Origin: Candidatus Zixiibacteriota bacterium
Lineage (GTDB): Bacteria > Zixibacteria > MSB-5A5 > GN15 > JACZUZ01
Reading direction: 5' to 3'
Assembly: GCA_024280775.1 (NCBI GenBank)
Contig: JAJRPM010000010.1
Span: 62,001 to 126,000 of the forward strand
Length of the DNA: 64,000 nt
Shown: positions 473-42,993 of the stretch, piece after piece
Layout: every line of letters starts with the position of its first letter
How positions within the stretch are numbered: the stretch's first letter is position 1
The notes under the pieces: model-generated
Told to the model about the DNA's origin: nothing
Seen by the model: the letters and a program-made list of their open reading frames with translations, nothing else
Database searches by the model: none
Translations under genes and position numbers: made by a program

Positions 473-2212
473 ATGCGCTGGACACAGACTTACATACCGA
501 CATTACGCGAGGCTCCCGCAGAGGCGGAGTTGATTTCTCATAAATTGCTTGTACGCGCAGGCTATATTCGCAAGCTGGCTTCGGGGATTTATCTCTATTT
601 GCCTTTGATGCAAAGAGTGATTCAGAAGTTCTCACAAATTGTACGTGACGAGATGAACGCCGCCGGCGCGGTGGAAGTTACGATGTCCGCTTTGGCTCCG
701 GCTGAGGTGTGGCAAAAATCTGGGCGTTATGAAACCGCCGGGCGAGAGCAAATGCGTCTGAAAGATCGTCACGGACGCGATTATGTGCTCAACGGCACCC
801 ACGAGGAAGTGATAACCTCACTGGTTTCCGGTGAGTTGAAGAGCTACAAACAATTGCCGTTGAATATGTATCAGATTCAGATAAAGTTTCGTGATGAGAT
901 TCGTCCGCGTTTTGGTTTGATGCGCGGCCGTGAGTTTATCATGAAAGACGCTTATAGTTTCGACGCCGATGTCGAATCACATAGGGTGAGCTATCAGAAA
1001 ATGGTCGACGCCTACTTCAAGATATTCGAACGCGCCGGGCTGGATTCTCGCATGGTTGAGTCTGACACCGGAGCAATGGGCGGCGAGTCGGCGCATGAAT
1101 TTATGGTGATTGTGGACACATCGGCAGGTGAGGAGTATTTGCTGTTTTGCGATAAATGTGATTATGCCGCCAATCGTGAGAAGGCGACTTTTCGTGATGA
1201 GAACCCGCCGATTATCGATAGCGAAGAGAAGGAGCTGGAAAAAGTTCCGACACCGGGAGCCGCGACAATTGAGGAAGTCACTGCGTTCTTGAAGGTCGAT
1301 GCGAATCGCCTGGTGAAGACTTTGATTTACAAGGCAATCGACGACAAAGATAATGCCACGCCGATAGTGGCCCTTGTTCGTGGCGATCGCGAGCTAAATG
1401 AGGTCAAGCTCAACAATTTAGTCAAGGCGGTTGAATTGGAGATGGCTGACGAAGATTTTGTGTGCGAAGTAACAGGCGCTCCGGTTGGATTTGCCGGGCC
1501 GGTTGGTTTGAAGAACAAAGAAATTACTATTTATGCGGACCATGAGGTCATGGCTCTCAAGAATGTGATAGTCGGGGCCAATGAGGCTGATACGCATTAT
1601 CTAAATGCAAATATCGGGCGAGACTTTGAAGTGACCGAAACTGGTGATTTGACTACCGCCAGCGAAGGTGACGCCTGCCCGAATTGTGATGGCCGTTTGG
1701 TATGCAAGAAGGGTATTGAGGTTGGCAATACCTTTATGCTGGGAACGAAATACTCAGACTCAATGGACGCTAAGTTCCTGAATTCCAACGGCAAAGCGAT
1801 GCCGTTCGTGATGGGCTCCTATGGAATAGGTATTACCCGCACACCGCAGGCGGCAGTTGAGCGTTATCATGACGATGGCGGAATTATCTGGCCCAAGGAT
1901 ATTGCTCCATATTCTGTGGAAGTTGTCCCACTCAATTACAAACAGGACAATATCCGTGAAGCCGCGGACAGCATCTATGCCAAGCTAAGCGAAGCCGGGG
2001 TAGATGTATTGTTGGATGATCGCCCCGAAAGAGCGGGAGTTAAGCTCAACGACGCTGATTTGATAGGCTGTCCGGTTAGGATCGCTATCGGCGCCAAGTC
2101 GTTGGACGAGGGAAAAGTAGAGCTAAAGGCCCGAAACAGTTCCGAGGTTCATCTAGTGGCAGTTGAGGGTATAGTTGCTGAGATCGAAAAGACTCTGAAA
2201 ACCCTCAAATAG
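473..2212 (+). CDS. proS: Prolyl-tRNA synthetase
   Basis: Charges tRNA-Pro with proline in the cytoplasm. The 579-residue length and the domain order match the bacterial-type ProRS. A class II catalytic core contains the THEE motif near residue 109 and motif 2 around 139-164 (FRDEIRPR...MKDAYSF). A YbaK-like insertion domain, which in this family edits Ala-tRNA-Pro, occupies roughly 220-400. Motif 3 is GSYGIGITR near 447, and a C-terminal anticodon-binding domain ends the protein. The chosen ATG begins the typical MRWTQTYIPTLREAPAEAE sequence. It stands alone after tRNA-Arg, followed by a 319-base gap that holds a terminator. Confidence 0.97.
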   Translation: MRWTQTYIPTLREAPAEAELISHKLLVRAGYIRKLASGIYLYLPLMQRVIQKFSQIVRDEMNAAGAVEVTMSALAPAEVWQKSGRYETAGREQMRLKDRHGRDYVLNGTHEEVITSLVSGELKSYKQLPLNMYQIQIKFRDEIRPRFGLMRGREFIMKDAYSFDADVESHRVSYQKMVDAYFKIFERAGLDSRMVESDTGAMGGESAHEFMVIVDTSAGEEYLLFCDKCDYAANREKATFRDENPPIIDSEEKELEKVPTPGAATIEEVTAFLKVDANRLVKTLIYKAIDDKDNATPIVALVRGDRELNEVKLNNLVKAVELEMADEDFVCEVTGAPVGFAGPVGLKNKEITIYADHEVMALKNVIVGANEADTHYLNANIGRDFEVTETGDLTTASEGDACPNCDGRLVCKKGIEVGNTFMLGTKYSDSMDAKFLNSNGKAMPFVMGSYGIGITRTPQAAVERYHDDGGIIWPKDIAPYSVEVVPLNYKQDNIREAADSIYAKLSEAGVDVLLDDRPERAGVKLNDADLIGCPVRIAIGAKSLDEGKVELKARNSSEVHLVAVEGIVAEIEKTLKTLK

Positions 2213-2531
2213 CTCACATTCAGGTTGACCTTCGTATGGTTTACCTGTTGCTATCCAGCCTGTTTCCACATTTCAAGGGCTGACAAGAGCTGATTTGTCT
2301 CTTATTGTGGTCCGGTTAGGGCTGATTCTCTCTGTGGCTTGTAATTAGAGAAAAAATCTGTTGCCTTTTGCGTTAGGGGCCAATATATTAGCCTCGCGTT
2401 CTGAAGTGGGCCTTAGCCCGCTTTTTTTGATTGATGAGCGCAAAATTGATATGCTTTTTGCACACATGTTTTTTGCAAACATTGTTGTGTCGTGACTTGT
2501 ATACAGTAGGTGAGTAGGTTAGACCGGGCAT
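2213..2531. other. Gap between proS and rimP
   Basis: No gene is seen. The stretch holds a hairpin terminator at 2406-2428 and, downstream of it, an AT-rich leader containing TTGCAA (2473-2478) and TATACA (2500-2505). Their 21-base spacing is too long for a confident promoter, but the rimP-nusA-infB transcript probably starts in this part. Confidence 0.5.
2406..2428 (+). terminator. Rho-independent terminator upstream of rimP
   Basis: A six-pair stem GTGGGC/GCCCGC with loop CTTA is followed directly by seven T (2422-2428). It lies 194 bases after the proS stop and 104 bases before the rimP start. It may end proS transcription, or act as an attenuator in the leader of the following operon. 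Confidence 0.7.
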
Positions 2532-2984
2532 ATGATTGAAGATGAGAATAGCCTGGTTGAGAGCGTGGTAGGCGAAGTTTTGGAGCGCGAAGCCACTCAT
2601 GATCTAGTTGAACTAGTTGTAGTCAGGCACGGGAAATCTGCTCGTTTGCAGGTTTTTGTGGATTCTGACAACGGAGTCACGCTTGCCGATTGCGTTAGGT
2701 TGTCTCGGGCGATTGACGGGGAACTTGAAGCGCGAGAGTTGTTTGAGGGGGCTTACACAATAGAGGTTTCATCACCGGGCATTGACAGGCCGCTCAAGAC
2801 GGAGAAAGAATTCCGTCGGAAGCTGGGACGGACTATTGCCGTTGATTTTGTGGATGAAGGCCGAAAGCAACTTCGGGGAGTTTTACGCGAAGTTGGGGAC
2901 GGAACGATAAAGGTTGAGCCGAAGAAGTCCGAAGCGCAGGTAGCTGTTTTGGATGAGATAGCAGAAGCTCGGGAATATATTTAG
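2532..2984 (+). CDS. rimP: Ribosome maturation factor RimP
   Basis: Assists 30S subunit assembly. The protein has 150 residues, the usual size. The conserved block is visible around residues 35-90: VDSDNGVTLADCVRLSRAID, then YTIEVSSPGIDRPL, the family signature. A small SH3-like C-terminal domain follows. The ATG at 2532 gives the usual short N-terminus. Position directly before nusA and infB is the standard bacterial arrangement. Its TAG stop (2982-2984) is formed by the first three bases of a 21-base palindrome, and the gap to nusA is unusually long. Confidence 0.95.
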   Translation: MIEDENSLVESVVGEVLEREATHDLVELVVVRHGKSARLQVFVDSDNGVTLADCVRLSRAIDGELEARELFEGAYTIEVSSPGIDRPLKTEKEFRRKLGRTIAVDFVDEGRKQLRGVLREVGDGTIKVEPKKSEAQVAVLDEIAEAREYI

Positions 2985-3003
2985 CCTGCAAGTTGCAGGC
3001 TAC
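2982..3003. repeat. 21-base palindrome containing the rimP stop codon
   Basis: The sequence TAGCCTGCAA-G-TTGCAGGCTA is a perfect 10-pair inverted repeat with one central base. Read on the reverse strand it begins GTAG, like the GTAGGGGC modules elsewhere in the window. It has no T-run, so it is not a standard terminator. It could stabilise the rimP 3' end or be an inserted repeat. Confidence 0.7.
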
Positions 3004-3326
3004 GACAGTTGAGAGGGAATAAGGGGATTCATCAAATTACAATTTCGTCGCTATATTAGTGGTTGTCATCTTAGGAATTCTTTCGAGATGCGATTGTAAT
3101 ATGTGTTTGTGCGCACTTAACGCACGGTGAATTAGAGATAGAAATAAAGCACAGGCGGTAATTTACGAGAGCGATTCTCCCCTCGCGCGACCTTCGGTAT
3201 ATGCCATGGTTTGGGCTTGGTGAATTTGGTCTTGTATTTTTTTCACCAAAACGGACTCTGGAGTCTTGCCGCTTGTGTATGCATATAGATAGTATTAGAT
3301 TGTAAAGAATTGGAGAACAGTGAACG
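2985..3326. other. Long spacer between rimP and nusA
   Basis: No gene is seen in 342 bases, although rimP and nusA are usually close together. Apart from the palindrome at its start, an 8-pair stem TTGGTGAA/TTCACCAA (3217-3224 with 3242-3249) encloses a 17-base T-rich loop about 80 bases before the nusA start. A GACT-CTGG-AGTC mini-hairpin follows. The spacer could hold a leader or a second promoter for nusA-infB. Confidence 0.4.
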
Positions 3327-4793
3327 ATGGGCTATGACATCGTTGAGGCGATGACGCAAATCGCCAGACAAAAGAATATAGATTTCGAGGTCGTGGTAGA
3401 CACTCTTGAGGCCGGGCTTCTTGCCGCGGCAAGAAAGAAATACCCTGAAGCGAGTAACATCTCGTTTAGCTTCAGCAAAAGCGACGGCGAAATCACTATG
3501 ATGGCTGTTAAGACGGTTGTCGAGGAAGTGACAGATCCGATTTTGGAGATTTCACTCGAAGACGCAGTTCGGTTGGATAAGACCGCGCAGGTTGGTGATG
3601 AGATGGATATCTATCTTGATCATGAAGAATTCGGTCGCAATGCGGTTGCCTCTGCTAAGCAAATACTGATTCAACGTGTGCGTGAAGCTGAGCGCATGAG
3701 AGTCTTTGAGGAGTATGAGGACAAAGTCGGCAAGATGGTCTCTGGCGTTGTTACACAGATTGATAAGACCGGTTTGCTGGTTAATCTCGGTGACGCTGAG
3801 GCGATTCTGCCTATGCGTGAACTGATTCCGCGCGAGAAGTATCGCCAGGGTGAGCGTCTACGCGCGATTATCACCAGCGTGGAGCAAGTAACTCGTGGTC
3901 CACAAGTCACACTTTCACGTGTCTCTGATGATTTCCTTCGGGCGTTATTTGCAGTTGAGGTTCCGGAGATTTATGAGAGAGTTATTGAGATAAAGGCTAT
4001 CGCTCGTGACGCTGGTGAGCGCGCCAAGATTGCGGTTACTTCAATCGATGACAGAATCGACCCGATTGGCGCCTGTGTGGGTGTCAAGGGTGTGCGTGTG
4101 CAGGCTGTTGTTCGCGAGTTGAACAATGAGCGCATCGACATAGTGCTATTTAGTTCTAATTCAGAGCTATTTGTGACTCGTTCATTGGCTCCGGCCAAAG
4201 TTACCGCGTTGGATGTGTATTCCGACCGTCAATCTATGACTGCGGCAGTGGAAGACGAAAAGCTTTCATTGGCGATTGGTCGTGGCGGTCAGAACGCTAG
4301 GCTGGCGTCGAAACTCACAGGTTGGAAGATAAATATTCTTTCTGACACTGAGTATAGTCTGATTAAACGCCAGCAAGTGGAAATGGCGATGCCTATCGGC
4401 GGTCTTGAGGGTGTTGGGCCGAAGATGGAAGATCGGCTTATTGAAATGGGTATTGTGTCGGTTCAGATGTTGGCTGATATGACGCTTGAAGAATTGACGG
4501 ATGTAGAGGGTATCGGCGAAAAAACCGCCGAGACCTTGCTTGAAGGGGCTCGCGGTATTTCCAATCGTATCCAACGCGAGTATTTGGCGAAGATTCGTCA
4601 AGAAAAGGCGGAAGCGGATGCCGAGGCTGAGGCCCAACCGGGTGGCAAGCCCAAGAAGGGCATTGACGCTTTGTTTGTAAGTGATGCGGAACTTGCCGCG
4701 TCAGCGGATGACGATAGTGATGAAGGTTCCACCGACGCTAATGAAACAGAAGAGTCGGGTGCGAGTGAAGAGGAGATTACCTCTGCTGACTGA
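3327..4793 (+). CDS. nusA: Transcription termination/antitermination factor NusA
   Basis: Binds RNA polymerase and nascent RNA and modulates pausing, termination and antitermination. The 488-residue protein shows an N-terminal polymerase-binding domain (NYDIVEA-like start, about 1-130), an S1 domain (about 135-200, KVGKMVSGVVTQIDKTGLLV), two KH domains (about 225-350, with IGACVGVKGVRVQ and SLAIGRGGQNARLAS), and a helix-hairpin-helix segment (about 360-410, LEGVGPKMEDRL and VEGIGEKTAETLL). A strongly acidic tail rich in D, E and S ends it. The ATG has GGAG 11 bases upstream. infB follows after 55 bases. Confidence 0.97.
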   Translation: MGYDIVEAMTQIARQKNIDFEVVVDTLEAGLLAAARKKYPEASNISFSFSKSDGEITMMAVKTVVEEVTDPILEISLEDAVRLDKTAQVGDEMDIYLDHEEFGRNAVASAKQILIQRVREAERMRVFEEYEDKVGKMVSGVVTQIDKTGLLVNLGDAEAILPMRELIPREKYRQGERLRAIITSVEQVTRGPQVTLSRVSDDFLRALFAVEVPEIYERVIEIKAIARDAGERAKIAVTSIDDRIDPIGACVGVKGVRVQAVVRELNNERIDIVLFSSNSELFVTRSLAPAKVTALDVYSDRQSMTAAVEDEKLSLAIGRGGQNARLASKLTGWKINILSDTEYSLIKRQQVEMAMPIGGLEGVGPKMEDRLIEMGIVSVQMLADMTLEELTDVEGIGEKTAETLLEGARGISNRIQREYLAKIRQEKAEADAEAEAQPGGKPKKGIDALFVSDAELAASADDDSDEGSTDANETEESGASEEEITSAD

Positions 4794-4848
4794 TTATTGG
4801 ATTTTCGATAATCGGCTATTCAACATTGCAGGAGTGAGAAAGTAATAC

Positions 4849-7221
4849 GTGGCTAATAAACGGATATATGAAGTTGCGCGAACGTTCGGCATTTCTTCGG
4901 AAGCCTTCGTTAAGATTGTGCGTGAGCTGAGGTTTACGCCTAAGTCACATATGAGCGTTGCGACTGAAGAGATGATTGCGGCTGTGACGCGCAAGTTCGA
5001 TATCGAGAAGGCTAACGCCAAGAAAGATATCGAACATAAGAAAAAAATGAAGCGCGATCAGGCCCGCGCAGCGGCAGCCAAGCGCACTAGTCCCTCGGGG
5101 GCTGGTGGTTCTCTTGGAGATTTTGTGAAATCCGACTCAAAGGCGGCCACTGGGACAACCAAGGCGCCTGCCAGCTCAGGCACAAAGTTTCCTTTGAAGA
5201 AGCCTTCTGGAGGAGGCGGTGGTTTTCGACCGGGTGGCGGAGGTGGTAGCGCTCGTTCAGGAGGAGGCGGTGGATTTCGTCCAGGCGGCGGTGGTGGTTT
5301 TCGACCCCAAGGTGGCCCACGTAAGAGAAAACGTAAAGGCAGGTCCGTTGACAGAGCTGAGGTGAGCAAGAGTTTCCGCTCCACGATGGCTCAAATCAGC
5401 GGTTCGCAGAAAACAAAGAAGTATCGTCGTCGTGGCGCAACCGCAGATGAGTTCATCGAAGTACAGAACATTGTCAAGGTAACTGAGTTCATGACAGTGG
5501 GCGAGCTGGCCAAGACATTGGAGCTTAGCCCTGGTGAATTGATAAAGAAGATTATCGAGCTTGGTCAGATGGCGACTATCAACCATCGACTGGATATTGA
5601 CACTATTGAGATGCTCTGTCTTGAGTATAATTTCGGTATTGAGCAGGAAACCGAAATTGGCGAGCATATCAAAGAGATTCAAGCCGAAGGTGAGCAAGTC
5701 AAGAGACCGCCGGTTGTCACTGTTATGGGGCATGTTGATCATGGAAAGACGTCGTTGTTAGACTATATCCGTGACGCCAATGTTGTCTCCGGAGAATCAG
5801 GAGCAATTACGCAGCATATAGGCGCCTATCAAGTCAAGACATCCTCAGGTGATGTTGTAACATTTCTCGATACTCCCGGTCATGAAGCTTTTACGGCAAT
5901 GCGCGCTCGCGGGGCACAGGTTACAGACGTAGTAATTCTTGTTGTCGCCGCAGATGACAACGTAATGCCTCAGACAATCGAGGCGATAGATCACGCCAAG
6001 GCCGCCAAGGCTCCGATTGTGGTGGCGATTAACAAAATCGACAAGCCGGAAGCCAATGTAGAGAAAGTCCGTCAAGGGCTCGCTACTCATGGGCTTTCAC
6101 CTGAAGACTGGGGTGGTGACACTCCGATGGTTCCAATTTCGGCGAAGACTGGCGAGGGAATAGATAAGCTGTTGGAGATTGTAGTTTTGACAGCTGATTT
6201 GTTGGAGCTAAAAGCTGATCCTTGCATTCGCGCTCAGGGTACAATCATTGAGTCGCGCCTGGAAAAGGGACGTGGTCCGGTGGCCACAGTTTTGGTGACC
6301 TGCGGCTCGGTTGCGGTTGGTGATATTATTGTTGCCGGTGTTAATCAGGGTCGAGTGCGAACTATTATCGACGATGGCGGCAAGCAATTGGCGGGTTTGA
6401 AACCTGGTGATCCAGGGCAGATAACTGGATTGAATGGAGCTCCTCAAGCAGGTGATTCATTCCTGGTCGTTCCTAGCGAAAGTTCTGCGCGTGAAATTAC
6501 CGGCAAACGTCAGCAGATTAAACGTGAGTATGATTACCGACGTCCGCGCGGTCATGCCACGCTTGAGAATATCTTCAGTCGTATTCAGGATGAAAAGATC
6601 AAGGAGTTGCCGCTCGTTATTAAGGGTGACGTTGATGGCTCGGTCGAGGTGTTAGCAGAGACGCTTTCAGCTATAGAGCATGACGAGGTTCGAGTCAGAA
6701 TAGTTCATAAGGGAGTCGGCGGCATAACTGAATCCGATGTTCTGTTGGCGTCGACATCAGGAGCTATCATTATTGGTTTCCATGTCGGACCAACCCCACG
6801 CGCTCGTGAGATCGCGGCGCGCGAACAAGTTGATATTCGTCGCTACTCGGTTATTTACGAAGTAGAGGACAGTGTTCGTAAGGCTCTTGAAGGTCTGCTC
6901 GCTCCAGCATTTGAGGAACGTCATGTTGGGCTCGCTGAGGTGCGTGATGTTTTCAAAGCCCCGAAGGTGGGTATGATTGCAGGTTGTCATGTCAAGGATG
7001 GTATCATCAAGCGAACTAATAAAGTGCATTTGATGCGTGATGGGAAAATGGTCTTTACCGGACCGATTGATTCATTGCGTCGTTTCAAGGATGATGTGAA
7101 AGAAGTACAAAGTGGTTTTGAATGTGGTATTCATATAGAAAACTTCAACGATGTCAAAGTCGGTGATACAATTGAGACTTTCGAGATTATCGAAGTCGCG
7201 CGCACACTACAGGAAGGATGA
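4849..7221 (+). CDS. infB: Translation initiation factor IF-2
   Basis: GTPase that places initiator tRNA on the ribosome. The protein has 790 residues. The start is GTG at 4849, supported by GGAGTGAG ten bases upstream and the typical MANKRIYEVARTFGIS sequence (IF2_N domain). Residues about 120-165 form a low-complexity linker of FRPGGGGG repeats ending in a basic RKRKRKGR patch. A second IF2_N-like segment follows near 215, then the G domain with GHVDHGKTS near 293, DTPGHEAF and NKID. Domains II-IV complete the C-terminus. The stop TGA lies ten bases before the next start, so the two genes are probably translated together. Confidence 0.97.
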   Translation: MANKRIYEVARTFGISSEAFVKIVRELRFTPKSHMSVATEEMIAAVTRKFDIEKANAKKDIEHKKKMKRDQARAAAAKRTSPSGAGGSLGDFVKSDSKAATGTTKAPASSGTKFPLKKPSGGGGGFRPGGGGGSARSGGGGGFRPGGGGGFRPQGGPRKRKRKGRSVDRAEVSKSFRSTMAQISGSQKTKKYRRRGATADEFIEVQNIVKVTEFMTVGELAKTLELSPGELIKKIIELGQMATINHRLDIDTIEMLCLEYNFGIEQETEIGEHIKEIQAEGEQVKRPPVVTVMGHVDHGKTSLLDYIRDANVVSGESGAITQHIGAYQVKTSSGDVVTFLDTPGHEAFTAMRARGAQVTDVVILVVAADDNVMPQTIEAIDHAKAAKAPIVVAINKIDKPEANVEKVRQGLATHGLSPEDWGGDTPMVPISAKTGEGIDKLLEIVVLTADLLELKADPCIRAQGTIIESRLEKGRGPVATVLVTCGSVAVGDIIVAGVNQGRVRTIIDDGGKQLAGLKPGDPGQITGLNGAPQAGDSFLVVPSESSAREITGKRQQIKREYDYRRPRGHATLENIFSRIQDEKIKELPLVIKGDVDGSVEVLAETLSAIEHDEVRVRIVHKGVGGITESDVLLASTSGAIIIGFHVGPTPRAREIAAREQVDIRRYSVIYEVEDSVRKALEGLLAPAFEERHVGLAEVRDVFKAPKVGMIAGCHVKDGIIKRTNKVHLMRDGKMVFTGPIDSLRRFKDDVKEVQSGFECGIHIENFNDVKVGDTIETFEIIEVARTLQEG

Positions 7222-14860: not shown

Positions 14861-15639
14861 GTTCCAGAGTTTCGCGTAGCACGCATTGGTATCGCCAACT
14901 TAATAGTGTTAATAGTGAGATTATCAAGATGGTCTTAGCTTTCCACAAAGTTGAACCGAGATTGACTTGGGGTGTGACGAATTATTCGCCGCGGAGATTC
15001 GGGCGCTTACTGGACTCTATTGCCATATTTACTGAACCTCGAAACGATAAGACAGTTTCGCTCACTTTTGACGATGGCTATCAGTCTTTTCTGAATCATG
15101 CAGATTCGCTACTAACTGATCGAAATTTGACAGCCACGATATTTGCCGTAACCGGTTACCTTGGCAAGCGCAACAGTTGGGACTATTCGTCAATCCTGGC
15201 GCCGTCACCACATATGACAGGTTCGGAATTGCGAGTAGCGGCCAGTCATGGACATCGGATTGAGTCACACACGCATACGCACAGAGATCTTCGAGCGCTA
15301 TCTACTACCGACCTGAATAGAGAACTCTCCGATTCAAAGCGTAATCTTGAAGACATCCTCGGGAATGAAGTATCGGAACTCTGTTACCCTTTCGGATTGT
15401 ACAATTCCAAGGTGGAACATGTCGCGCGTGATGTGGGTTATCAGAGAGGCTGGAGCATGAATCCTGTTGATAATGGCCCTTTTACATTTGGGCGCTGGGG
15501 AGTGTATAGCTTCGATACTCCGCTTACCGTTTGGTCGAAGATGAATCCAGGTTCTCCTGGAGCCAAATTGGAGAAGCTGAAACTGCAGGCAACCAGCTCA
15601 ATGGCCAAAGCGGCGCGTTTTGCTTTTTGGACTGAGTGA
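14857..15639 (+). CDS. Polysaccharide deacetylase (NodB-like) family protein
   Basis: Predicted to remove N- or O-acetyl groups from a cell-envelope polysaccharide. The NodB motif 1 is SLTFDDGYQSF (about residues 68-78) and the metal-binding H-x3-H motif is in ESHTHTHRDL near 136. CYPFGLYN near 175 matches motif 3. The frame opens with a TTG that overlaps the M16 stop (TTGA). An ATG at 14929 would give MVLAFHKVEPR, closer to the common start of the fold (YHRV-like), and may be the true start. No signal peptide is visible. Gene order after the M16 peptidase suggests one transcript with it. Confidence 0.82.
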   Translation: MSSRVSRSTHWYRQLNSVNSEIIKMVLAFHKVEPRLTWGVTNYSPRRFGRLLDSIAIFTEPRNDKTVSLTFDDGYQSFLNHADSLLTDRNLTATIFAVTGYLGKRNSWDYSSILAPSPHMTGSELRVAASHGHRIESHTHTHRDLRALSTTDLNRELSDSKRNLEDILGNEVSELCYPFGLYNSKVEHVARDVGYQRGWSMNPVDNGPFTFGRWGVYSFDTPLTVWSKMNPGSPGAKLEKLKLQATSSMAKAARFAFWTE

Positions 15640-16232: not shown

Positions 16233-18247
16233 AAGAGGGCTTGGTCAATTGGTGCCCCGACTGTATGACAGTGTTGGCCAATGAGCAAGTTGTGAGCTGT
16301 TGCTGTGAAAGATGTGATTCAGAGGTCGAAAAGAAAGAGCTCAAGCAATGGTATTTCAAGATTACCGACTACGCCGATCGTCTAGTCGACGACCTCGACA
16401 AACTGCCCGGCTGGCCTGACAGTGTTAAGACTATCCAGCGCGAATGGATTGGTCGTTCCTATGGCGCAGAGGCGCGCTTTCAAGTGGAGGAAGCTGATTG
16501 GAGCATACCTGTTTATACCACACGTCTGGATACTATCTATGGTGTAACTTTTATTGCTATAGCCCCAGAGTCGAAGCTCGCGGAGCGTCTGAATGTAAGC
16601 GATGAAAAGCGCACCGAAATTGACGCTTACAAGAGCGCGGCGATGCTAAAGAATGATATTGATCGCGGCAATGACACTGTAGAGAAAACAGGAGTTTTCA
16701 GCGGGCTGTATGCTACGAATCCATTCAGCGGCGCTCGTGTACCTATATGGATTGCCGACTATGTGCTGGCGCAGTATGGAACCGGGGCTGTTATGGGTGT
16801 GCCTTTCAATGATATGCGTGATAAGGCTTTTGCTGAGAAGTATGATTTACCTATTCAGCAGATTCTAACTACCGCTGATGGAAGCGAGGTTAAGGAGGGG
16901 GAAGTCATATCTATTGCTAATGGTGTGACGGTTAACTCCGGTCGTTTTAGCGATATGTCTTCAAAAGAGGCGATTGACAGCATGGCCGCCTTTGCTGAAG
17001 AAGGGAAATTCGGCAAGAAAACCAAGCAATTCAAATTGCATGACTGGTTGATTTCTCGTCAGCGGTACTGGGGAACTCCTATTCCTATTATTCACTGCGA
17101 TAAATGCGGCCAGGTTCCGGTTCCGGAGAGTTCGTTGCCTATTGAGTTACCTATTATTAGTGACTATCTGCCCAAAGGTCGTTCACCGCTGGCCGACGTC
17201 GATGAGTTTATCAATGTCAAGTGTCCAACATGCGGGGGAGACGCAAAGCGTGACGCCGATACTATGGATACGTTTGTGTGTTCCTCATGGTATCATTTGC
17301 GCTATGCTGATCCGAACAATGGCTCGGCGCCATTCGAGACCGACAAAGCCAATTCATGGCTACCTGTCGATAAATATATCGGGGGCATAACACATGCAAC
17401 CGGTCACTTGTTGTATTTCCGTTTTATTACGAAATTCTTGCATGATTTGAAATTGATTGATTTCGAAGAACCGGCAAAGGAATTGTTTAACCACGGGATG
17501 GTTAGTGACAGTTCAGGACAAGTGATGTCCAAATCTCGCGGTAATGTAGTCAGTCCAATAGAGTTGATGGAACAAAGGGGAGTGGATGTCACTCGTTTGG
17601 CGATGTATTTCACCGCGCCGTCGGACAAAGAAGTCCTTTGGTCGGATGCGGCCTTAGTGGGAGTTGAGAAATTCCTCTTGAACAAAGTAATTGGCCTGCC
17701 AGCATTGTATGACGCTTCATGCAGTGACTTAAAGTCTCACTTCAAGCAAGCCGACTTGAGTTCCGCTGATTGGGATTTCTACACTGTCCTTAACCAACAG
17801 CTCAAGCGCATTACAGATGATTCTGAGAAACTGCAGTTTAATACAGTCATCGCCGCATCAATGGAGCTATCTCGTGAGATTGAACGCGCAACAGATATTA
17901 CTCCTGCGCTTCGGAATTACTCGGTTCGAGTATTGATTCAAGTTCTGGCTCCGTTGATTCCGCACGTGGCTGAGGAGATTTGGCAGACACTGGGATTCAA
18001 GGAGTCAATCTTCAAGTCGCAGTGGCCCAAAGTTGATGATTCGGCTTTGGTGTCACAGACTATTACTATGGCTGTTCAAATCAATGGAAAAGTTCGCGGT
18101 CAAATAGATATCGCTCCTGATGCTGACTCAGCTACCGCCTTGAGCGCGGCCAAAGCTTCTGAATCGGTGGTGCGTCACCTTGACGGGAAGACTGTTGTGA
18201 AAGAAATCTATATCCCTGGCAAGATTCTCAATATCGTGGTAAAGTAG
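16229..18247 (+). CDS. leuS: Leucyl-tRNA synthetase, C-terminal part (frameshifted)
   Basis: The remaining 672 residues of LeuRS, starting in the zinc-ribbon region (NWCPDCMTVLANEQV with CCERC). Next come the CP1 editing domain (TTRLDTIYGVTF near residue 95, GTGAVMGVPFND near 183), a second Cys4 zinc insertion (CDKCG and CPTCGG), the KMSKS loop as VMSKSRGNVVSP near 423, the anticodon-binding helices, and the small C-terminal domain. The apparent ATG at 16229 arises only because of the upstream frameshift. With the N-terminal piece the full protein is about 836 residues, normal for the family. Confidence 0.93.
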   Translation: MKEGLVNWCPDCMTVLANEQVVSCCCERCDSEVEKKELKQWYFKITDYADRLVDDLDKLPGWPDSVKTIQREWIGRSYGAEARFQVEEADWSIPVYTTRLDTIYGVTFIAIAPESKLAERLNVSDEKRTEIDAYKSAAMLKNDIDRGNDTVEKTGVFSGLYATNPFSGARVPIWIADYVLAQYGTGAVMGVPFNDMRDKAFAEKYDLPIQQILTTADGSEVKEGEVISIANGVTVNSGRFSDMSSKEAIDSMAAFAEEGKFGKKTKQFKLHDWLISRQRYWGTPIPIIHCDKCGQVPVPESSLPIELPIISDYLPKGRSPLADVDEFINVKCPTCGGDAKRDADTMDTFVCSSWYHLRYADPNNGSAPFETDKANSWLPVDKYIGGITHATGHLLYFRFITKFLHDLKLIDFEEPAKELFNHGMVSDSSGQVMSKSRGNVVSPIELMEQRGVDVTRLAMYFTAPSDKEVLWSDAALVGVEKFLLNKVIGLPALYDASCSDLKSHFKQADLSSADWDFYTVLNQQLKRITDDSEKLQFNTVIAASMELSREIERATDITPALRNYSVRVLIQVLAPLIPHVAEEIWQTLGFKESIFKSQWPKVDDSALVSQTITMAVQINGKVRGQIDIAPDADSATALSAAKASESVVRHLDGKTVVKEIYIPGKILNIVVK

Positions 18248-18760
18248 TGATTCGTAGCGATAGTTAGGTTTTTTTCATATTCTTAGATTTAGAGCTTGCT
18301 TTACGGATTCAGAAGCGCTAGAATCGGATTTTAGAAGACCGAAGGGGATTATCTTCTCCCGGTAGATGTATTTGCAGGTTCTTTAAGCTCAGTATCAACT
18401 AACACAGTGCGCCGTAATCTGCCCAGCAGGACTTGCGGTGATATGTCACAGAGAGGACACGCGCGTGAGTTGTAGTATAGTCTTACCAAAGACATTTTTT
18501 CCAATCTTCCGTTTCTTCATCAACTCCGTTACAGATTTCTCTTATCGCTATCATAACAGTAGTCTACATTCGTTTGATACCATTCAGCGGCTGAGCTTTC
18601 TTAGGCCCACTAAAGACGTTTGTCTATTGAGACACTCACTGCGATTTCATCGTGACCGTGAGCCCTTGACGCGCGCTTACCAGCCGCAGAGTAACATAAG
18701 ATATATTATGAGACGTAATAGAATTGTTTCACCAAACCCTTTTCACTTAACGGAGGCATC
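18248..18760. other. Gap between leuS and the AsnRS-like gene
   Basis: 513 bases with no convincing gene. A 108-codon frame covers part of it, but it has no recognisable motif and overlaps the next start. A TTGACG (18666-18671) lies in the last 100 bases without a well-spaced -10. A good GGAGG precedes the next ATG. Nothing else is recognised. Confidence 0.4.
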
Positions 18761-36335: not shown

Positions 36336-37865
36336 ATGTCATCTAATGGATCAAATGGCTCAAGCGCCACTTACGAAAAACTGACTAAGAAGATTCGCAA
36401 TTACCAAACTTTGGGAGCCTGCGGCGCTCTTCTCTCCTGGGACGAGCAAACACTAATGCCCAGCAAAGGCGCTGAATTTCGCTCTGAGCAGTTGTCAATG
36501 ATAGCCGGGATGGTGCATGAGAGTTCCACCTCAGCGGAAATTGGAGATATGCTAAGCGAACTACGTAGCTCAGAGCTGACTCAGAAAAGTGATTCGCCTG
36601 AGGCGGTCAACATTCGCGAGGTCTCACGCGAATACAACAAGAGCAAGAAACTCTCACGTGAGTTTGTCGAGGAAATGACTCTGGTAACCAGCCAGGGACA
36701 GCATGCCTGGAAAGAGGCGCGCGAGAAAAAAGATTTCAGCATATTCCTTCCCTACCTGGAAAAGGTTATCGCTCTGAAAATCAAGCAGGCCGAAACCTAT
36801 GGCTACGAAAAAGACCGTTATGATGCGCTCATTGATGATTACGAGCCAGGTGCGACATTTGAATCAATCGGCAAAGTCTTTGCAGATTTCCGCGATGAGT
36901 TAGCGCCGTTTTTCAAAGCAATTCAGGATTCGGGCAATCAACCCAAGAGCAAGATTATCGAGCGCGACTTCCCTGTTGACGCCCAAGAGAAATTCGCCTC
37001 GGAATGCGCTAAAGCTATAGGATTCGACTTTTCCGCCGGGCGGTTGGATGTAACTACTCATCCTTTCTGTAGCGGTATCGGGCCCGGTGATACTCGTATC
37101 ACCACTCGATACAACCCGAACCACTTCCCCGATGCATTCTTCGGAACCTTACATGAAGCGGGCCACGGCATTTATGAGCAGGGCCTCAATACCAAATACT
37201 TTGGTCTTCCGATTGGTCAGGCTGTGTCGCTGGGAATTCATGAGTCACAGTCACGGATGTGGGAGAATCTGGTGGGTCGGAGTAAGCCTTTCTGGAAGAG
37301 GTTCTATGGCGACGCCCAAAAGGCATTCCCGGGCGCTCTCAAAGATGTGGCGCTCGATGATTTCTACTGGGCTGTCAATGATGTGCGCTCTTCATTCATC
37401 CGTGTCGAAGCTGATGAAGTGACATATAATTTGCATATCATCCTGCGCTTTGAAATGGAGCGAGCCATGATAAATGAGGAAATTTCAGCCGCTGATGTTC
37501 CGGCGGTTTGGAACGAGAAATTCACCAGTTTCTTTGGTATTACCCCGCCGGATGATTCGATGGGTTGTATGCAGGATGTGCATTGGTCCGCCGGCCTGAT
37601 GGGCTACTTCCCTACTTATGCGCTTGGGAATTTGTATGCGGCTCAGTTCTTTGCCAAGGCCATGGAGGATTTGCCGAATATGTACGCCAATTTCGAAAAA
37701 GGTGAATTCGGCGAACTCAAGAGCTGGCTCAATGAGAATATTCATTCACATGGCCAGCGTTACCCCGCTGAGAAACTGGTGGAAGTTGTAACCGGGCAGA
37801 AACTATCGCACAAAGCGGAAATGAAATATCTGCGCGATAAGTATGGCCCGCTCTACGGAATCTAA
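36336..37865 (+). CDS. Carboxypeptidase Taq (M32) family metallopeptidase
   Basis: Zinc carboxypeptidase that removes C-terminal residues from peptides, cytoplasmic, 509 residues. The HExxH zinc motif is HEAGHGIYEQG (about 273-283), and the third ligand lies in IHESQSRMWENLVGRS near 302. Family blocks CSGIGPGDTRITTRYN and MGCMQDVHWSAGLMGYFPTYALGN are both present. The start at 36336 gives a Ser/Gly/Asn-rich leader of about 12 residues before the conserved helix. It stands alone, upstream of tRNA-Leu. Confidence 0.95.
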   Translation: MSSNGSNGSSATYEKLTKKIRNYQTLGACGALLSWDEQTLMPSKGAEFRSEQLSMIAGMVHESSTSAEIGDMLSELRSSELTQKSDSPEAVNIREVSREYNKSKKLSREFVEEMTLVTSQGQHAWKEAREKKDFSIFLPYLEKVIALKIKQAETYGYEKDRYDALIDDYEPGATFESIGKVFADFRDELAPFFKAIQDSGNQPKSKIIERDFPVDAQEKFASECAKAIGFDFSAGRLDVTTHPFCSGIGPGDTRITTRYNPNHFPDAFFGTLHEAGHGIYEQGLNTKYFGLPIGQAVSLGIHESQSRMWENLVGRSKPFWKRFYGDAQKAFPGALKDVALDDFYWAVNDVRSSFIRVEADEVTYNLHIILRFEMERAMINEEISAADVPAVWNEKFTSFFGITPPDDSMGCMQDVHWSAGLMGYFPTYALGNLYAAQFFAKAMEDLPNMYANFEKGEFGELKSWLNENIHSHGQRYPAEKLVEVVTGQKLSHKAEMKYLRDKYGPLYGI

Positions 37866-38005: not shown

Positions 38006-38089
38006 GCCGGAGTGGTGAAATTGGTAGACGCAGGGGACTCAAAATCCCCCGATGGCAACATCGTGTCGGTTCGATTCCGACCTCCGGCA
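38006..38089 (+). tRNA. tRNA-Leu (anticodon CAA)
   Basis: A class II tRNA with a long variable arm. The acceptor stem GCCGGAG pairs with CTCCGGC and the discriminator is A38089. The anticodon loop CTCAAAA between GGGGA and TCCCC gives anticodon CAA (reads UUG). The variable arm is CGATGGCAACATCG and the T arm is GTCGG-TTCGATT-CCGAC. Six T follow directly. Its 3' end is copied 1358 bases downstream, so this gene was used as an integration site. Confidence 0.96.
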
Positions 38090-38094
38090 TTTTT
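38073..38094 (+). repeat. Direct repeat (attL-like) at the tRNA-Leu 3' end
   Basis: GATTCCGACCTCCGGCATTT and the next two T form the first copy of a 22-base direct repeat. The second copy at 39431-39452 has a single change (C38084 to T). It covers the 3' part of the T arm, the acceptor stem and the T-run, the usual crossover region for tyrosine-recombinase islands. Confidence 0.75.
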
Positions 38095-38149
38095 TCCACA
38101 TATAGTTCTTCCAAAGTCAATTTGGAAAGAACGCATCATCTGAAATCGC

Positions 38150-39181
38150 ATGACAAAGAAAAAAGCGACTCGAATAGTTAGAGTAGTACTGCTTATTGGA
38201 ACGATAACCTCCATGTTCTTTGTACCATGGATTTTGGTATGGGCTTGGATATTACCACTACCTGATACGGTCCAAGAGCAAGTAAATGAAGCAATCTATC
38301 ATGGATTTGATGGAATTATTGTTTATGTGGACGAAGCAGGCAAACCACCAGCGTTTTATGCCGCTGGTTGGCATGACCGGAAGAACAAAATACCCGCCTA
38401 CCCGCAAGCCTTATTCAAGATTGCCAGCATCAGCAAGTTATATGTTGCTGTTGCTATCACCAAATTAGCCAATGACAAACGTTTGTCTTTAGATAATACG
38501 CTCGCTGATTACTTTCCTGAACTTGTCGGAAGAATTGAAAATGTAGAAAAAATCACCTTGAGATTGATGGTGCAACACAGGAGTGGCATTCCCGATTATA
38601 TCTACAACCCTGATTTTTGGGATGAAAAGAGCAGTAAAGAAACGCTTGAATACGCGCTTGATTTGCCGGCTAACTTTGAACCAGATGAAGAATATGGTTA
38701 TTCAAATACAAATTATTTGTTGCTTTCCAGAATCATTGATAAGGTGGTGGGTTATAGTCGTCACCAATTTATCAAGGAGGAAATTCTGCTACCACTTGGG
38801 CTGAACAATACTTTCGGTACGCTTAGTGAAGTGGATATAGATGATGTTATGAGTGGCTATTATGTAGGCATTGAAGCCGACCTGAAGAGTGAGGATCAAG
38901 GAATGTTAGCTACGGCAGAGGATGTGGGCATATTCTTGCGTGCGCTAAACGATTGCTCTTTGTTTGATGAAGGAGAACAGGAAATCTATTCCTCAGTTTA
39001 TGTTTACGAACATACAGGTCTGATTACAGGCTATCAGAGTATCGCAAAATACCACAATGACATTGACGCAGTTGTTATCCAATTTATGAATACAACTGAT
39101 TTTGATGGATACAATTGGAATTTATCAGAGATAGTATATAGTCGTATTGTAAAAATACTGAGAAGCAAAAAAAGCTCATAG
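38150..39181 (+). CDS. Serine hydrolase, beta-lactamase class C/AmpC-like (islet cargo)
   Basis: A 343-residue predicted penicillin-binding-type hydrolase. One membrane segment (about 8-35) anchors it or serves as a signal. The SxxK motif is SISK at 93-96 and the YxN motif is YSN near 182 (YGYSNTNYLLLSRI). HTGLITGYQS near 286 takes the place of the third motif (HxG/KTG). Family members include D-aminopeptidases, esterases and class C beta-lactamases; the substrate is not predictable. Base composition is clearly more AT-rich than the neighbours, and the gene lies between the two copies of the tRNA-Leu 3' end, so it was probably acquired horizontally. Confidence 0.85.
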   Translation: MTKKKATRIVRVVLLIGTITSMFFVPWILVWAWILPLPDTVQEQVNEAIYHGFDGIIVYVDEAGKPPAFYAAGWHDRKNKIPAYPQALFKIASISKLYVAVAITKLANDKRLSLDNTLADYFPELVGRIENVEKITLRLMVQHRSGIPDYIYNPDFWDEKSSKETLEYALDLPANFEPDEEYGYSNTNYLLLSRIIDKVVGYSRHQFIKEEILLPLGLNNTFGTLSEVDIDDVMSGYYVGIEADLKSEDQGMLATAEDVGIFLRALNDCSLFDEGEQEIYSSVYVYEHTGLITGYQSIAKYHNDIDAVVIQFMNTTDFDGYNWNLSEIVYSRIVKILRSKKSS

Positions 39182-39744
39182 CAATGTATAAAAGTCATCA
39201 AAACGACGTTTTAGACCAACCGTTCCTGAGACTTAAAAAGCCAAAATAATTGATATTTCTAATCGACAAAATAAACTAGACAAAACTTTCAGTGGGCCTC
39301 CCTACAAGTTTATGTCTTGGGAATATAGGAAACCTATTCAGCCAGAATTGGAAATCTTAGACGCCAAACCAAAACCACTATAATTCTTTATTGGTCAATT
39401 GTTTATTTGTTATTGTGAGTAATGTATGTAGATTCCGACCTTCGGCATTTTTGTTCATAAATACCATGCTCCGACCTACAAAGTTTAATTGAAGCTTTCA
39501 GTTCTTTGTTGAGATTTATCCACCTTTCTCGCCAACCTTGCATCCATAAATGGCTTGCCATTTCCTAATATGGGGCTATATTGTATTGTCCATCAGTACA
39601 AAGGACAAATAGGGCTCTTCCCTATAGGTTAGCTTGCCAGCAAATATCTATCAATCGACAATGATTCACTTTCATGTCGCTCAATAGGAAACATACACAT
39701 ATAGAATATTCTCACAGCGTCAACACACATCGAAGGGCCGTCAA
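39182..39744. other. AT-rich stretch after the islet cargo gene
   Basis: 563 bases without a convincing gene. The first 250 bases share the AT-rich character of the serine-hydrolase gene and end at the second tRNA-Leu fragment (39431-39452). The remainder is the upstream region of the SBBP-repeat gene. No integrase remnant was recognised. Confidence 0.5.
39431..39452 (+). repeat. Direct repeat (attR-like) copy of the tRNA-Leu 3' end
   Basis: GATTCCGACCTTCGGCATTT and two further T match the tRNA-Leu 3' end in 21 of 22 bases. The rest of the tRNA is absent. This is the expected far boundary of an element inserted in the tRNA gene. Confidence 0.72.
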
Positions 39745-42700
39745 ATGCAAACAATTTCCAACAAATCTGCAATTAAGTCTCTAGCGCTAATCTTAATCAG
39801 CTCTAGCCTGGCTCTTTGGGTAGTTAGTGAACGATTTCAGCAGGAGGACCTGACAGGTAGTGTCAACTCTGATGTAGAAAAGGCAAGCAATTTGTCATCG
39901 GCGAATCTTGCCGCAACACAACAGCTTCGATTTGTGGAAAACCAGGGCCAGGCCGGACTCTCGGCAAAATACCATGTTCAAGGAGCCGGGCATACTGTTC
40001 TGTTCCATGAGGATAAAGTTGTGCTACGTAGAGATGAAGCGGTTGGCGCGAAGAATGAGATTGTCCTGCAATTCAATGGAGCAAATCAAAATCCGGAAGT
40101 TTCAGGGCGCGAGAAACTTCCCGGTGTAGCTCATTTTTACAAAGGTCAAAATCCAGAACAATGGCACACCAATGTACCTACATACGAATCTGTGATATAT
40201 TCGGAATTGTATCCTGGCATAGACATGGCCTACATCGGAAACGATGGCAAACTTGAGAGCGAGTTCTATGTCTCTCCGGGAGTTGATTTCCGTCAAATCC
40301 GAATAAGCTACAATGGTGTCAAAGCAATTACCATCCGAGATGACGGCGCCTTGGCGCTCACAACTGAAATTGGTGAGCTAATTGAGAGACGTCCGTTTGC
40401 CTATCAGAATGTTGATGGAGCAAGAAAAGAAATTGATGCTGAGTATGTGTTACTTGCCGATGCATCGGTTGGTTTCGAACTAGGTGGCTATGATCATGAG
40501 CGGCCGTTGGTGATTGACCCTGAACTGGTTTTTCTCTCGACAATCCCTGGTGGGCCGGGCGGCGGTGAATGGGCTGGTGATGTGGTTATTGATAATGACA
40601 ATAATGTCATACTTTCAGGCGGCGCTAATCGTTTCTTTCCTGCCGCCGATTCTATCGCCGGTTCAAACCATGTTGGCGGCTCTAGTAGCGATGGTTTACT
40701 TGTGAAGCTAGATGGCACTACTGGAGCTGTGATCTATTCTGCCTTGTTTGGAGGCTCCAGATTGGATTACTTCAATGAACTTGCCATCGATCCCTCAGGC
40801 AATCTATACCTTACCGGACTAACCAAGTCTAGCGACTTCCCGGTTCTGAATGCTCTTCAAGACACATTGGCCGGCGCAGAGGATGCATTCATGACTATAC
40901 TGGATGCGACCGGCGCACTTACCTACAGCACATATATTGGGGGAACATTGCGAGACTGGGGTGAAGGAATCACTTTGGATGATTCCGGCAACGTATATAT
41001 CGGAGGTAGCACCGAATCTGACGATTTCCCCACCACAGCTGGATTCCAGTCGACCTTTCAGGGAGGCTCTCGCGGCTCGGCATTTCCGGCTGATAACTTT
41101 GTGGCGAAATTCACCGCGCAAGGAGACCTGGTATACGCCACTTATCTTGGTGGCTCAGGAGATGACAGGTTTCAGGGGCTAACTGCCAATAGCTCAGGTC
41201 AAGTGACTGTCGCTGGAAACACGCTCTCATCAGATTTTCCGATGATGAACGCTTATCAGGATACACTAGGCGGCATTAAATGGGGAATCGGGGACATTAC
41301 AGTCACCAAGTTAAACAGCTCTGGAACCGGTCTTATTTATTCGACATATATCGGTGGCGCCATTCAGGATTGGGCAACCGATATTGCCAGTGGCATAAAT
41401 GGCGAAGTATACGTCTCAGGCGGAACAAGCTCATCGAACTTCCCGGTCATAAACGGCCTTTCCGCGCCGGAAGCAGACACTTCCGACGGCGTTCTTATCA
41501 GCTTGAACAAGGTTGGACAACCTGTCTATTCAGTGCGGACCAATTCGCCCGGATTCGACGCATTTGCCGCGGTTGGAGTTCATGGTCGCGCAGTTGCATA
41601 TCCTGTGGGTTCATGGGGTGATTCGACCAGAGTTTATGTAAAGTCAATTGACAGCGCTTTGAGTGTCCATTTCGCATTTGCGGCTCCTGGGCACAAGGTC
41701 AACAGCGCGTATTTATTTGGAGAATACATGGCCTTCGCGAATGTGTTCTTCGCCGCTTCTCCGGCAACCTCTTCTGCCACCGGCAACGCAAATAATCTGT
41801 CTTTGGGTTCGTCTCCAAGTTTGGCTGGTAGCGCCTTGAGCAGGTTGATTAGCAAGGGTCTATGGATAGCCGCGTTCAATAACTCTGCGCTAAACTTGGA
41901 CTACGATTTCGGTGATGGAATTCTAGCTCTTGGCGCTCAGCAAGACGGAAATACCACAGTCAACGGCGAAAACACAGGTGTTCCTACCGAAGAAGTCGTT
42001 GAGGTAAATATTAAGGGTTCCGATGGCGATGAGGAAGTCGACTTAAGCGGTATGATGGTTGAGTATTTTACGAATTTGACTCTTGTTGCCATCGTCACCG
42101 GCGGTGGCTCGGACTTGGTATTTGCGACTGTATTAAATAACATCAACTTATTGGTAAACGCAGGCGCCGGAGTTGACCAAATCTATGTTGCGTTATGGAT
42201 TAGTTATGTCAACGCCATAATCAATGGTGGACTTGGAAGTGATATGTATACCTTCCTCAGTCAATCCAACTCCCAACAATTATCTCCGACACCAGCAAAC
42301 CCAGGCGCCGCGCGATATGCGGTAGCTCCAGTCACAGTAGTTGATTCAGGAGGTGTGGACACCTTGAACTTTGCCAATTATGGCATGGGCGTCACTTTGG
42401 ATTTGGAAGCGCAACAAACTGCGCAAACCATCGACACCTCAGGTACGCAGATTGTTCTGGATGGAATGTTTGAAGTTGTAAGAGGAAGCGCCTCAAATGA
42501 TGAGATTACTCTCGCCCCTCTAGCTGGTGTTCCTCGACATTTTGACGGAGGAAGCGGAACAGATGTCCTGAACATCGCTCCGGCGAGCGCTCAATCAGTC
42601 GATGATGGCTCCACTATTCGGACACCGGGGTTTGCAGATATAACCTATTCAAATATCGAGACTGTCAATCTACCGATAGTCACTGGAATCGGAGATGACG

Positions 42701-42993
42701 ACAAGCCGTTGCCTTTCAACTTCAGTCTCAATCAGAACTATCCAAATCCATTCAACCCGTCAACAGTGATTTCGTACAGCATACCCACCAAATCCGAAGT
42801 GACAATCGGAATATACAATGTCCTCGGTCAGCAGATTGCGCTCTTTTCACAAGGACAACAGTCTGCAGGCGAATACAGTGTCACCTGGAGTTCTACTGAC
42901 AAATCCGGTGTGAGTGTCGCCAGTGGGATGTACTTCTACAAGATCACTGCTGGAGATTTCACTGCCTCACGGAAAATGGTTCTCTTGAAGTAA
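39745..42993 (+). CDS. Large secreted SBBP beta-propeller protein with FlgD-like C-terminal tail
   Basis: A 1082-residue exported protein. A signal segment lies at about 9-26. The first domain (about 55-260) matches the family found before SBBP repeats (FVENQGQ, HFYKGQNPEQWHTNVPTYE, YPGIDMAYIGNDGKLESEF). SBBP repeats follow at about 270-600, each of the type YSTYIGG...DIAS..GEVYVSGGT.SSNFPV. Residues about 730-930 contain RTX-like glycine/aspartate turns (GGGSDLVFA, GAGVDQIYV, GGLGSDMYTF, GGSGTDVLNI). The last 85 residues (NYPNPFNPSTVISYSI...GMYFYKI) form the FlgD-like tail seen in type IX-secreted proteins. It is probably surface-located; the ligand is unknown. Confidence 0.85.
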   Translation: MQTISNKSAIKSLALILISSSLALWVVSERFQQEDLTGSVNSDVEKASNLSSANLAATQQLRFVENQGQAGLSAKYHVQGAGHTVLFHEDKVVLRRDEAVGAKNEIVLQFNGANQNPEVSGREKLPGVAHFYKGQNPEQWHTNVPTYESVIYSELYPGIDMAYIGNDGKLESEFYVSPGVDFRQIRISYNGVKAITIRDDGALALTTEIGELIERRPFAYQNVDGARKEIDAEYVLLADASVGFELGGYDHERPLVIDPELVFLSTIPGGPGGGEWAGDVVIDNDNNVILSGGANRFFPAADSIAGSNHVGGSSSDGLLVKLDGTTGAVIYSALFGGSRLDYFNELAIDPSGNLYLTGLTKSSDFPVLNALQDTLAGAEDAFMTILDATGALTYSTYIGGTLRDWGEGITLDDSGNVYIGGSTESDDFPTTAGFQSTFQGGSRGSAFPADNFVAKFTAQGDLVYATYLGGSGDDRFQGLTANSSGQVTVAGNTLSSDFPMMNAYQDTLGGIKWGIGDITVTKLNSSGTGLIYSTYIGGAIQDWATDIASGINGEVYVSGGTSSSNFPVINGLSAPEADTSDGVLISLNKVGQPVYSVRTNSPGFDAFAAVGVHGRAVAYPVGSWGDSTRVYVKSIDSALSVHFAFAAPGHKVNSAYLFGEYMAFANVFFAASPATSSATGNANNLSLGSSPSLAGSALSRLISKGLWIAAFNNSALNLDYDFGDGILALGAQQDGNTTVNGENTGVPTEEVVEVNIKGSDGDEEVDLSGMMVEYFTNLTLVAIVTGGGSDLVFATVLNNINLLVNAGAGVDQIYVALWISYVNAIINGGLGSDMYTFLSQSNSQQLSPTPANPGAARYAVAPVTVVDSGGVDTLNFANYGMGVTLDLEAQQTAQTIDTSGTQIVLDGMFEVVRGSASNDEITLAPLAGVPRHFDGGSGTDVLNIAPASAQSVDDGSTIRTPGFADITYSNIETVNLPIVTGIGDDDKPLPFNFSLNQNYPNPFNPSTVISYSIPTKSEVTIGIYNVLGQQIALFSQGQQSAGEYSVTWSSTDKSGVSVASGMYFYKITAGDFTASRKMVLLK

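Follow-up and report, generated by a model that had tools for sequence, protein, structure and literature searches.

The 64,000-nucleotide stretch analysed here (the window), which belongs to the genome G000, contains a tRNA-Leu(CAA) gene followed by a short AT-rich segment that ends in a second copy of the tRNA 3' end. The proximal copy, GATTCCGACCTCCGGCATTTTT, is a 22-mer consisting of the last 17 bases of tRNA-Leu(CAA) and five T. The distal copy, GATTCCGACCTTCGGCATTTTT, lies in the same orientation at an offset of 1358 and differs from the proximal one by a single mismatch. When an 18-mer of the repeat was searched at ≤2 mismatches in the whole 3.17-Mb genome, it was found in two places only, the copies at 38073 and 39431, and no 22-mer or 16-mer match at ≤1 mismatch was obtained in 300 first-order Markov shuffles of 15 kb. 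The locus begins with the intact tRNA and closes with a displaced copy of the tRNA 3' end, the mark of a tRNA-integrated island, and it retains both att-like sites, as expected of CIMEs (cis-mobilizable elements). Because tRNA-Leu(CAA) is intact, the tRNA side is the reconstituted copy. The features and their flanks are listed in Table 1.

Table 1. Features of the tRNA-Leu(CAA) locus, in positions of the window
Feature	Position	Strand	Basis or remark
Left flank, M32 carboxypeptidase gene	36336..37865	+	PF02074, E=2.8e-184
tRNA-Leu(CAA), docking site	38006..38089	+	ARAGORN; Rfam RF00005, 53.4 bits
Proximal repeat (attL-like), tRNA 3' end plus 5 T	38073..38094	+	GATTCCGACCTCCGGCATTTTT
Short leader; second half corresponds to the conserved cassette leader of G001 and Bacteroidota	38095..38149	+	
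Cargo, 343-aa membrane-anchored S12-type serine hydrolase	38150..39181	+	PF00144, E=6e-40
Short hairpin directly behind the stop codon, degenerate attC-like	39180..39226	+	alignment with equivalents behind homologues from other phyla
AT-rich non-coding DNA, no counterpart in G001	39227..39430	.	sequence comparison
Distal repeat (attR-like), 21/22 to the proximal copy	39431..39452	+	GATTCCGACCTTCGGCATTTTT
Right flank, SBBP beta-propeller / Por_Secre_tail protein	39745..42993	+	orthologue in G001

The GC content of 38095-39430 is 0.381, as against 0.478 for the 64-kb window, and falls within the lowest 0.3% among windows of equal length. The hydrolase gene, intact and assigned to PF00144, is the sole sizeable ORF between the repeats. 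Neither the ORF list nor the profile search revealed a recombinase encoded between the two repeats, and no recombination or conjugation module is present, which is also the state of CIMEs. The initial annotation, which had reported a 22-base direct repeat of the tRNA-Leu 3' end (21 matches) around about 1.36 kb of AT-rich DNA with one serine-hydrolase gene and no integrase, is therefore borne out in these points. The DNA behind the stop codon (39182-39430) is non-coding and has 32.9% GC. The sequence ATTGTGAGTAATGTAT, at 39413-39428 just before the distal repeat, also occurs behind a hydrolase homologue in a Melioribacteraceae MAG (L095), possibly by chance.

The hydrolase has an N-terminal membrane anchor, read off its sequence, and the motifs SxxK (S93/K96), YxN (Y184/N186), and HxG (H288/G290) are invariant in an alignment of 20 homologues. 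Its closest solved relatives in a profile search are an alkaline D-peptidase (4y7p) and DD-carboxypeptidases, and the protein is predicted from its sequence to be a cell-envelope hydrolase. Among the 132 genomes of the phylum, the gene is present at E≤1e-30 in just two, G000 and G001 (a congener of G000, a Candidatus Zixiibacteriota MAG). Further relatives, retained from a genome-wide scan, share 67-82% identity with the window's hydrolase and come mostly from Bacteroidota, with some from Gammaproteobacteria, Ignavibacteriota, and Calditrichota. Plasmid and phage relatives were rejected; the best has 58% identity (a Persicobacter plasmid) and the others about 30% or less.

Between G000 and G001, the synonymous divergence (pS) of the hydrolase gene is 0.25 and the difference at fourfold sites 0.20, whereas 15 syntenic neighbour genes have pS values of 0.75-0.94 and fourfold-site differences of 0.62-0.79; the adjoining M32 gene has 74.8% nucleotide identity and a pS of 0.83. 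Toward the closest Bacteroidota copies, the pS of the window's hydrolase is 0.40-0.46. The G000 and G001 sequences group together in the tree (100/96), nested among those of Bacteroidota. The low pS relative to the neighbours and the position in the tree clearly indicate that the gene has moved horizontally, crossing phyla. It is a clear case, with a synonymous divergence across phyla that is lower than the neighbouring genes have within one genus. Among 80 hydrolase loci, a tRNA directly upstream of the gene was found, apart from the window's, only in the congener, implying that the hydrolase gene does not target tRNAs by itself.

In G001 the hydrolase gene lies at the same tRNA-Leu, preceded by a similar short stretch, and a second repeat of the tRNA end is absent from that locus. 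G000 and G001 are about 0.75 identical as far as the tRNA; from there to 39200 the value is about 0.9, and past that point it falls to 0.48. The shared segment stops at ~39221, the end of the hydrolase 3' hairpin and about 210 bp before the distal repeat; this drop at ~39200-39221 implies that the boundary of the shared unit is the gene's hairpin, not the repeat. The left flank with the M32 gene is syntenic in G001 and in G003, a member of the same family, and the SBBP orthologue in G001 is about 7.6 kb further from the hydrolase. The intervening stretch (L033 764-7600, G001:C17) holds carA, carB, a glycosyltransferase gene, and the cold-shock gene csp, names given from reading the translations; G000, which is 97% complete, yielded no convincing carB. 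In G003 the M32 gene and the tRNA are present, the hydrolase is absent, and unrelated DNA follows the tRNA. The initial annotation had proposed that an empty tRNA-Leu site be sought in related genomes. A strict one, with the tRNA followed by the DNA now behind 39452, was not found, the DNA of G003 being a mismatch and the site in G001 being occupied. Since the DNA after the tRNA in G003 is unlike that behind the distal repeat, G003 attests the absence of the gene and is not a proven empty site.

In this order (Zixibacteria), small passenger islets dock repeatedly at the tRNA-Leu(CAA) gene. At 10 of 26 related tRNA-Leu(CAA) loci, a copy of the tRNA end was found on the same strand within 15 kb downstream at ≤2 mismatches (5 of them at ≤1), a fraction slightly biased upward, as one of the ten, G020, entered the set once a phylum-wide scan had shown its copy; chance may explain the two-mismatch copies that have no flanking similarity (G007, G021). 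The opposite-strand control at the same 26 loci gave one copy, a real tRNA-Leu(TAA) gene. A separate scan, which includes loci chosen for their copies, detected neither upstream copies nor a downstream recurrence of the tRNA 5' end. The bracketed segments at tRNA-Leu(CAA) span 2.65-12 kb and most have no recombinase gene. Integrase-less ones are those of G005 (2.95 kb, one kinase gene), G025 (12 kb, one giant gene), G027 (5.0 kb, three secreted proteins), and G072 (2.65 kb), and an integrase-less islet of 1.1 kb with one gene is situated at tRNA-Leu(TAA) in G004. Further islets at the same tRNA, which the initial annotation had suggested looking for, are thus found in relatives.

Some additional arrangements were observed at tRNA-Leu genes. 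The 1.1-kb islet of G004 comes with an exact repeat of the tRNA-Leu(TAA) end, and immediately upstream of that tRNA are genes for a replicative-helicase-like protein and a tyrosine recombinase of 343 aa (L219, G004:C12, reverse strand 1329-5898). In G026 and G065, tandem units of ~92 bp (91-93 bp), each opening with the tRNA-Leu 3' end, are situated directly behind the tRNA (L202 171-371; L209, tRNA-Leu from 475 onward, minus strand).

A candidate enzyme for this site is encoded in relatives. In G012, a 572-aa large serine recombinase (Resolvase, Recombinase, and Zn-ribbon domains; L187 13398-15116, plus strand) is antisense to tRNA-Leu(CAA) (15065-15150, minus strand) and overlaps its end, so that the antisense strand of the tRNA gene encodes the C-terminal residues of the recombinase, CRRSESNRHDVAIGGF. 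A distal copy of the tRNA end lies 10.3 kb away. In G124, a homologue of this recombinase abuts tRNA-Leu(CAA), and decayed recombinase tails are found there in G085 and G030, with weaker ones in G022 and G007. In G027 and G072 the integrase-less segment does not include the recombinase tail, which follows immediately after the distal copy, giving the order tRNA, integrase-less segment, copy, recombinase remnant. Such a tandem order was seen in these two genomes only. This order fits the later docking of a passenger in trans by a resident enzyme; the loss of the segment's own enzyme would leave the same order. Homologues of the G012 recombinase elsewhere in the phylum adjoin tRNA-Met, Glu, Asn, and His.

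No member of the large serine recombinase family of G012 was found in G000 or G001, and no clear recombinase remnant was detected in the 64-kb window beyond the residues encoded by the tRNA. A recombinase gene adjacent to attL, which characterises large-serine-recombinase elements, is absent in the window and in G000 and present in G012 and G124. The initial annotation had envisaged a tyrosine recombinase recognising the att sequence. No such enzyme was found, and the only recombinase that matches the site is the serine recombinase of the relatives. The four PF00589 proteins of G000 were rejected as partners: two look like XerC/XerD, one is encoded behind tRNA-Ser(GGA), and one was unplaced. 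The gene behind tRNA-Ser(GGA), for a 375-aa tyrosine recombinase, starts about 110 bp behind the tRNA (G000 L172 6033-7358, G000:C12), and no repeat of the tRNA-Ser(GGA) end was found within 8.9 kb. Serine integrases in general need no long identical att repeats, so copies of 17-22 nt fit tyrosine enzymes at least as well.

Several homologues of the hydrolase in other phyla have a cassette-like context. The leader common to its relatives starts sharply between a G and the TTATGAGC that follows it, and several of them have inverted repeats behind the stop codon. In Psychroserpens, Maribacter, a Bacteroidetes MAG, and others, the gene is part of one-directional arrays with attC-like sites of 60-137 nt. 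In a model built from 17 of these sites, the covariation was reached by none of 500 shuffles and 91.8% of cells were paired, against at most 43.5% for slid versions; the model matches 53, 76, and 43 sites in three flavobacterial genomes. A simple attC-like pattern scan over all hydrolase loci gave 30 hits on the same strand, 9 on the opposite strand, and 14 in shuffled sequence, hardly above the shuffled level, and the array claim therefore rests on the covariance model and the individual loci. The arrays begin directly behind a same-strand tyrosine recombinase, which matches the integron-integrase model in two pieces only, both below cut-off. This arrangement is integron-like, and its organisation suggests that these enzymes may recombine the cassettes. 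The arrays to which the hydrolase leads are large (L255 1231-18574, with the tyrosine recombinase at 17447-18574; L256 6334-14547; L174 20-1542; L175 549-2954; L177 663-3713; G142:C4 193886-351696), and no description of Bacteroidota attC-like arrays headed by such a tyrosine recombinase was found in the integron literature searched.

In G000 and G001, the long attC-like model (R1) has no match. The hairpin of the window at 39180-39226 has a weak consensus fold of 8 pairs, and a short weak hairpin of the same type is present in G001. The integron integrase (TIGR02249) scores below cut-off in both genomes, so the IntI by which integron cassettes are recognised was not found in either.

These findings suggest that 38090-39452 is an integrase-less, att-bracketed islet of CIME-like kind that carries foreign cargo at a recurrent tRNA-Leu docking site, a reading to which we assign a probability of about 0.6. 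Four things are shown: two copies of the tRNA end form a pair, relatives use the docking site repeatedly, a recombinase sits at this tRNA in some of them, and the cargo is foreign. The segment would have arisen when DNA integrated site-specifically at the tRNA-Leu(CAA) 3' end, most likely through a large serine recombinase like the one docked at this tRNA in relatives, which would have acted in trans or been lost from the islet later; the two courses look alike here. The source of the hydrolase gene would be a pool shared across phyla with its centre in marine Bacteroidota, among which the gene would travel as a cassette. The islet would restore the tRNA, leave the host gene functional, and add one cell-envelope hydrolase.

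The initial annotation had gone further and suggested a non-autonomous islet mobilised in trans. The horizontal movement of the cargo, the recurrence of the docking site, the serine recombinase docked at tRNA-Leu in relatives, and the order in G027 and G072 agree with it, so that mobilisation in trans is plausible, and a recombinase of the G012 serine family may have made the window's islet in this way. Several findings count against the islet reading as a whole: G001, with the gene at this tRNA too, lacks a second repeat, similarity stops about 210 bp short of the distal repeat, no recombinase of the family is encoded in G000 or G001, and neither a strict empty site nor a clear remnant in the window was found. 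The recurrence nevertheless gives an uncultured phylum a small-islet docking site with a candidate enzyme in relatives, which is testable on the same tRNA end.

As a special case of the islet reading, the segment could be the decayed remainder of a larger autonomous tRNA-Leu element, whose recombinase and other genes were deleted in place and which was never a passenger in trans. The degraded recombinase tails at tRNA-Leu(CAA) in G030 and G085, with the weaker ones in G022 and G007, show that elements of this kind do decay where they sit, and the non-coding, 32.9% GC stretch at 39182-39430 is also compatible with it. However, the window itself yielded no recombinase remnant, and the order in G027 and G072 shows that a segment with no integrase can be nearer to the tRNA than a recombinase element is. 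We regard decay in place as possible though rather unlikely.

The main rival assumes two unrelated events. The hydrolase would have reached this genus as a cassette, placed a few tens of bases downstream of tRNA-Leu either in an integron-like manner or through homologous exchange, and the repeat at 39431 would be the leftover of an older, mostly deleted tRNA-Leu element; the bracket would then be coincidental and the gene would never have moved as a tRNA islet. The end of the segment shared with G001 at the hairpin (39221) instead of the repeat, the absence of the second repeat in G001, the common leader of the homologues from the boundary before TTATGAGC, and the occurrence of several of them in attC-like arrays all point in this direction. 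On the other hand, G000 and G001 contain no integron integrase above cut-off and no match to the long attC-like model, only the weak short hairpin, and the site coincides exactly with the tRNA-Leu end at which many relatives have bracketing copies of the same kind. Separate origins of the gene and the distal repeat appear doubtful. That the repeat is a chance match, as the initial annotation had allowed, or a simple duplication of the tRNA end without mobility is most improbable in spite of the one mismatch in the distal copy and the congener without a copy, given the lack of matches in shuffles, the uniqueness in the genome, the recurrence of copies in relatives only downstream and on the same strand, and the strongly reduced synonymous divergence of the cargo. 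Chance as such is refuted by the genome-wide search, the shuffles, and the strand comparison across the 26 loci.

The islet reading can be extended, tentatively, to a two-step flow across phyla, in which Zixibacteria took up an integron-like single-gene cassette of Bacteroidota and retained it behind tRNA-Leu, in islets that lack an integrase and are docked in trans by a resident large serine recombinase. The source system would be the one-directional attC-like arrays, at whose head lies a tyrosine recombinase in which no IntI patch is recognisable. If such a flow exists, single-gene tRNA-Leu islets would be a general acquisition route in the phylum.

The size and the single cargo gene, which the initial annotation had called remarkable, are ordinary for the CIMEs of Streptococcus: these are flanked by att sites at the 3' end of the target gene, contain cargo genes and no recombination or conjugation genes, and measure 1.2-13 kb, and microCIMEs measure 130-220 bp (PMC7563491). 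The window's islet shares the att repeats at the target 3' end, the cargo, and the lack of those modules, and its 1.36 kb is within the size range; the ~92-bp tandem copies of G026 and G065 resemble the gene-less microCIMEs. Unlike the case of CIMEs, no conjugative or mobilizable parent element was seen here; G012 has a serine-recombinase element at the same tRNA. In S. salivarius, decayed elements are distal to the target gene, whereas here integrase-less segments can adjoin the tRNA.

Integron gene cassettes and CALINs (PMC9024848) resemble the cargo homologues in their one-directional single-gene arrays and attC-like hairpins ending in CGTTR. The window's copy differs: its hairpin is short and weak at best, it is not part of an array, and no integron integrase accompanies it; the linked Bacteroidota recombinases score below the integron-integrase cut-off. 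In tRNA/tmRNA genomic islands (Islander, PMC4383910), the RNA gene is restored and a displaced 3' fragment marks the far end, as in the window; the catalogued islands are usually formed by a tyrosine integrase, whereas the window's islet encodes none. The ssrA islands of Dehalococcoides occur in tandem and have 20-bp direct repeats of the RNA gene 3' end; their serine recombinase, DsiB, is about 540 aa long, and its reverse-strand gene adjoins attL and has the repeat embedded in it (PMC3146451). Repeats of an RNA gene 3' end and tandem islands recur at tRNA-Leu, and the reverse-strand recombinase of the G012 type likewise embeds the repeat; the target differs (tmRNA versus tRNA-Leu), and no recombinase remains in the window. 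Islets of the window's type and size are thus already known, and their closest kinds are the CIMEs and the Dehalococcoides ssrA islands.
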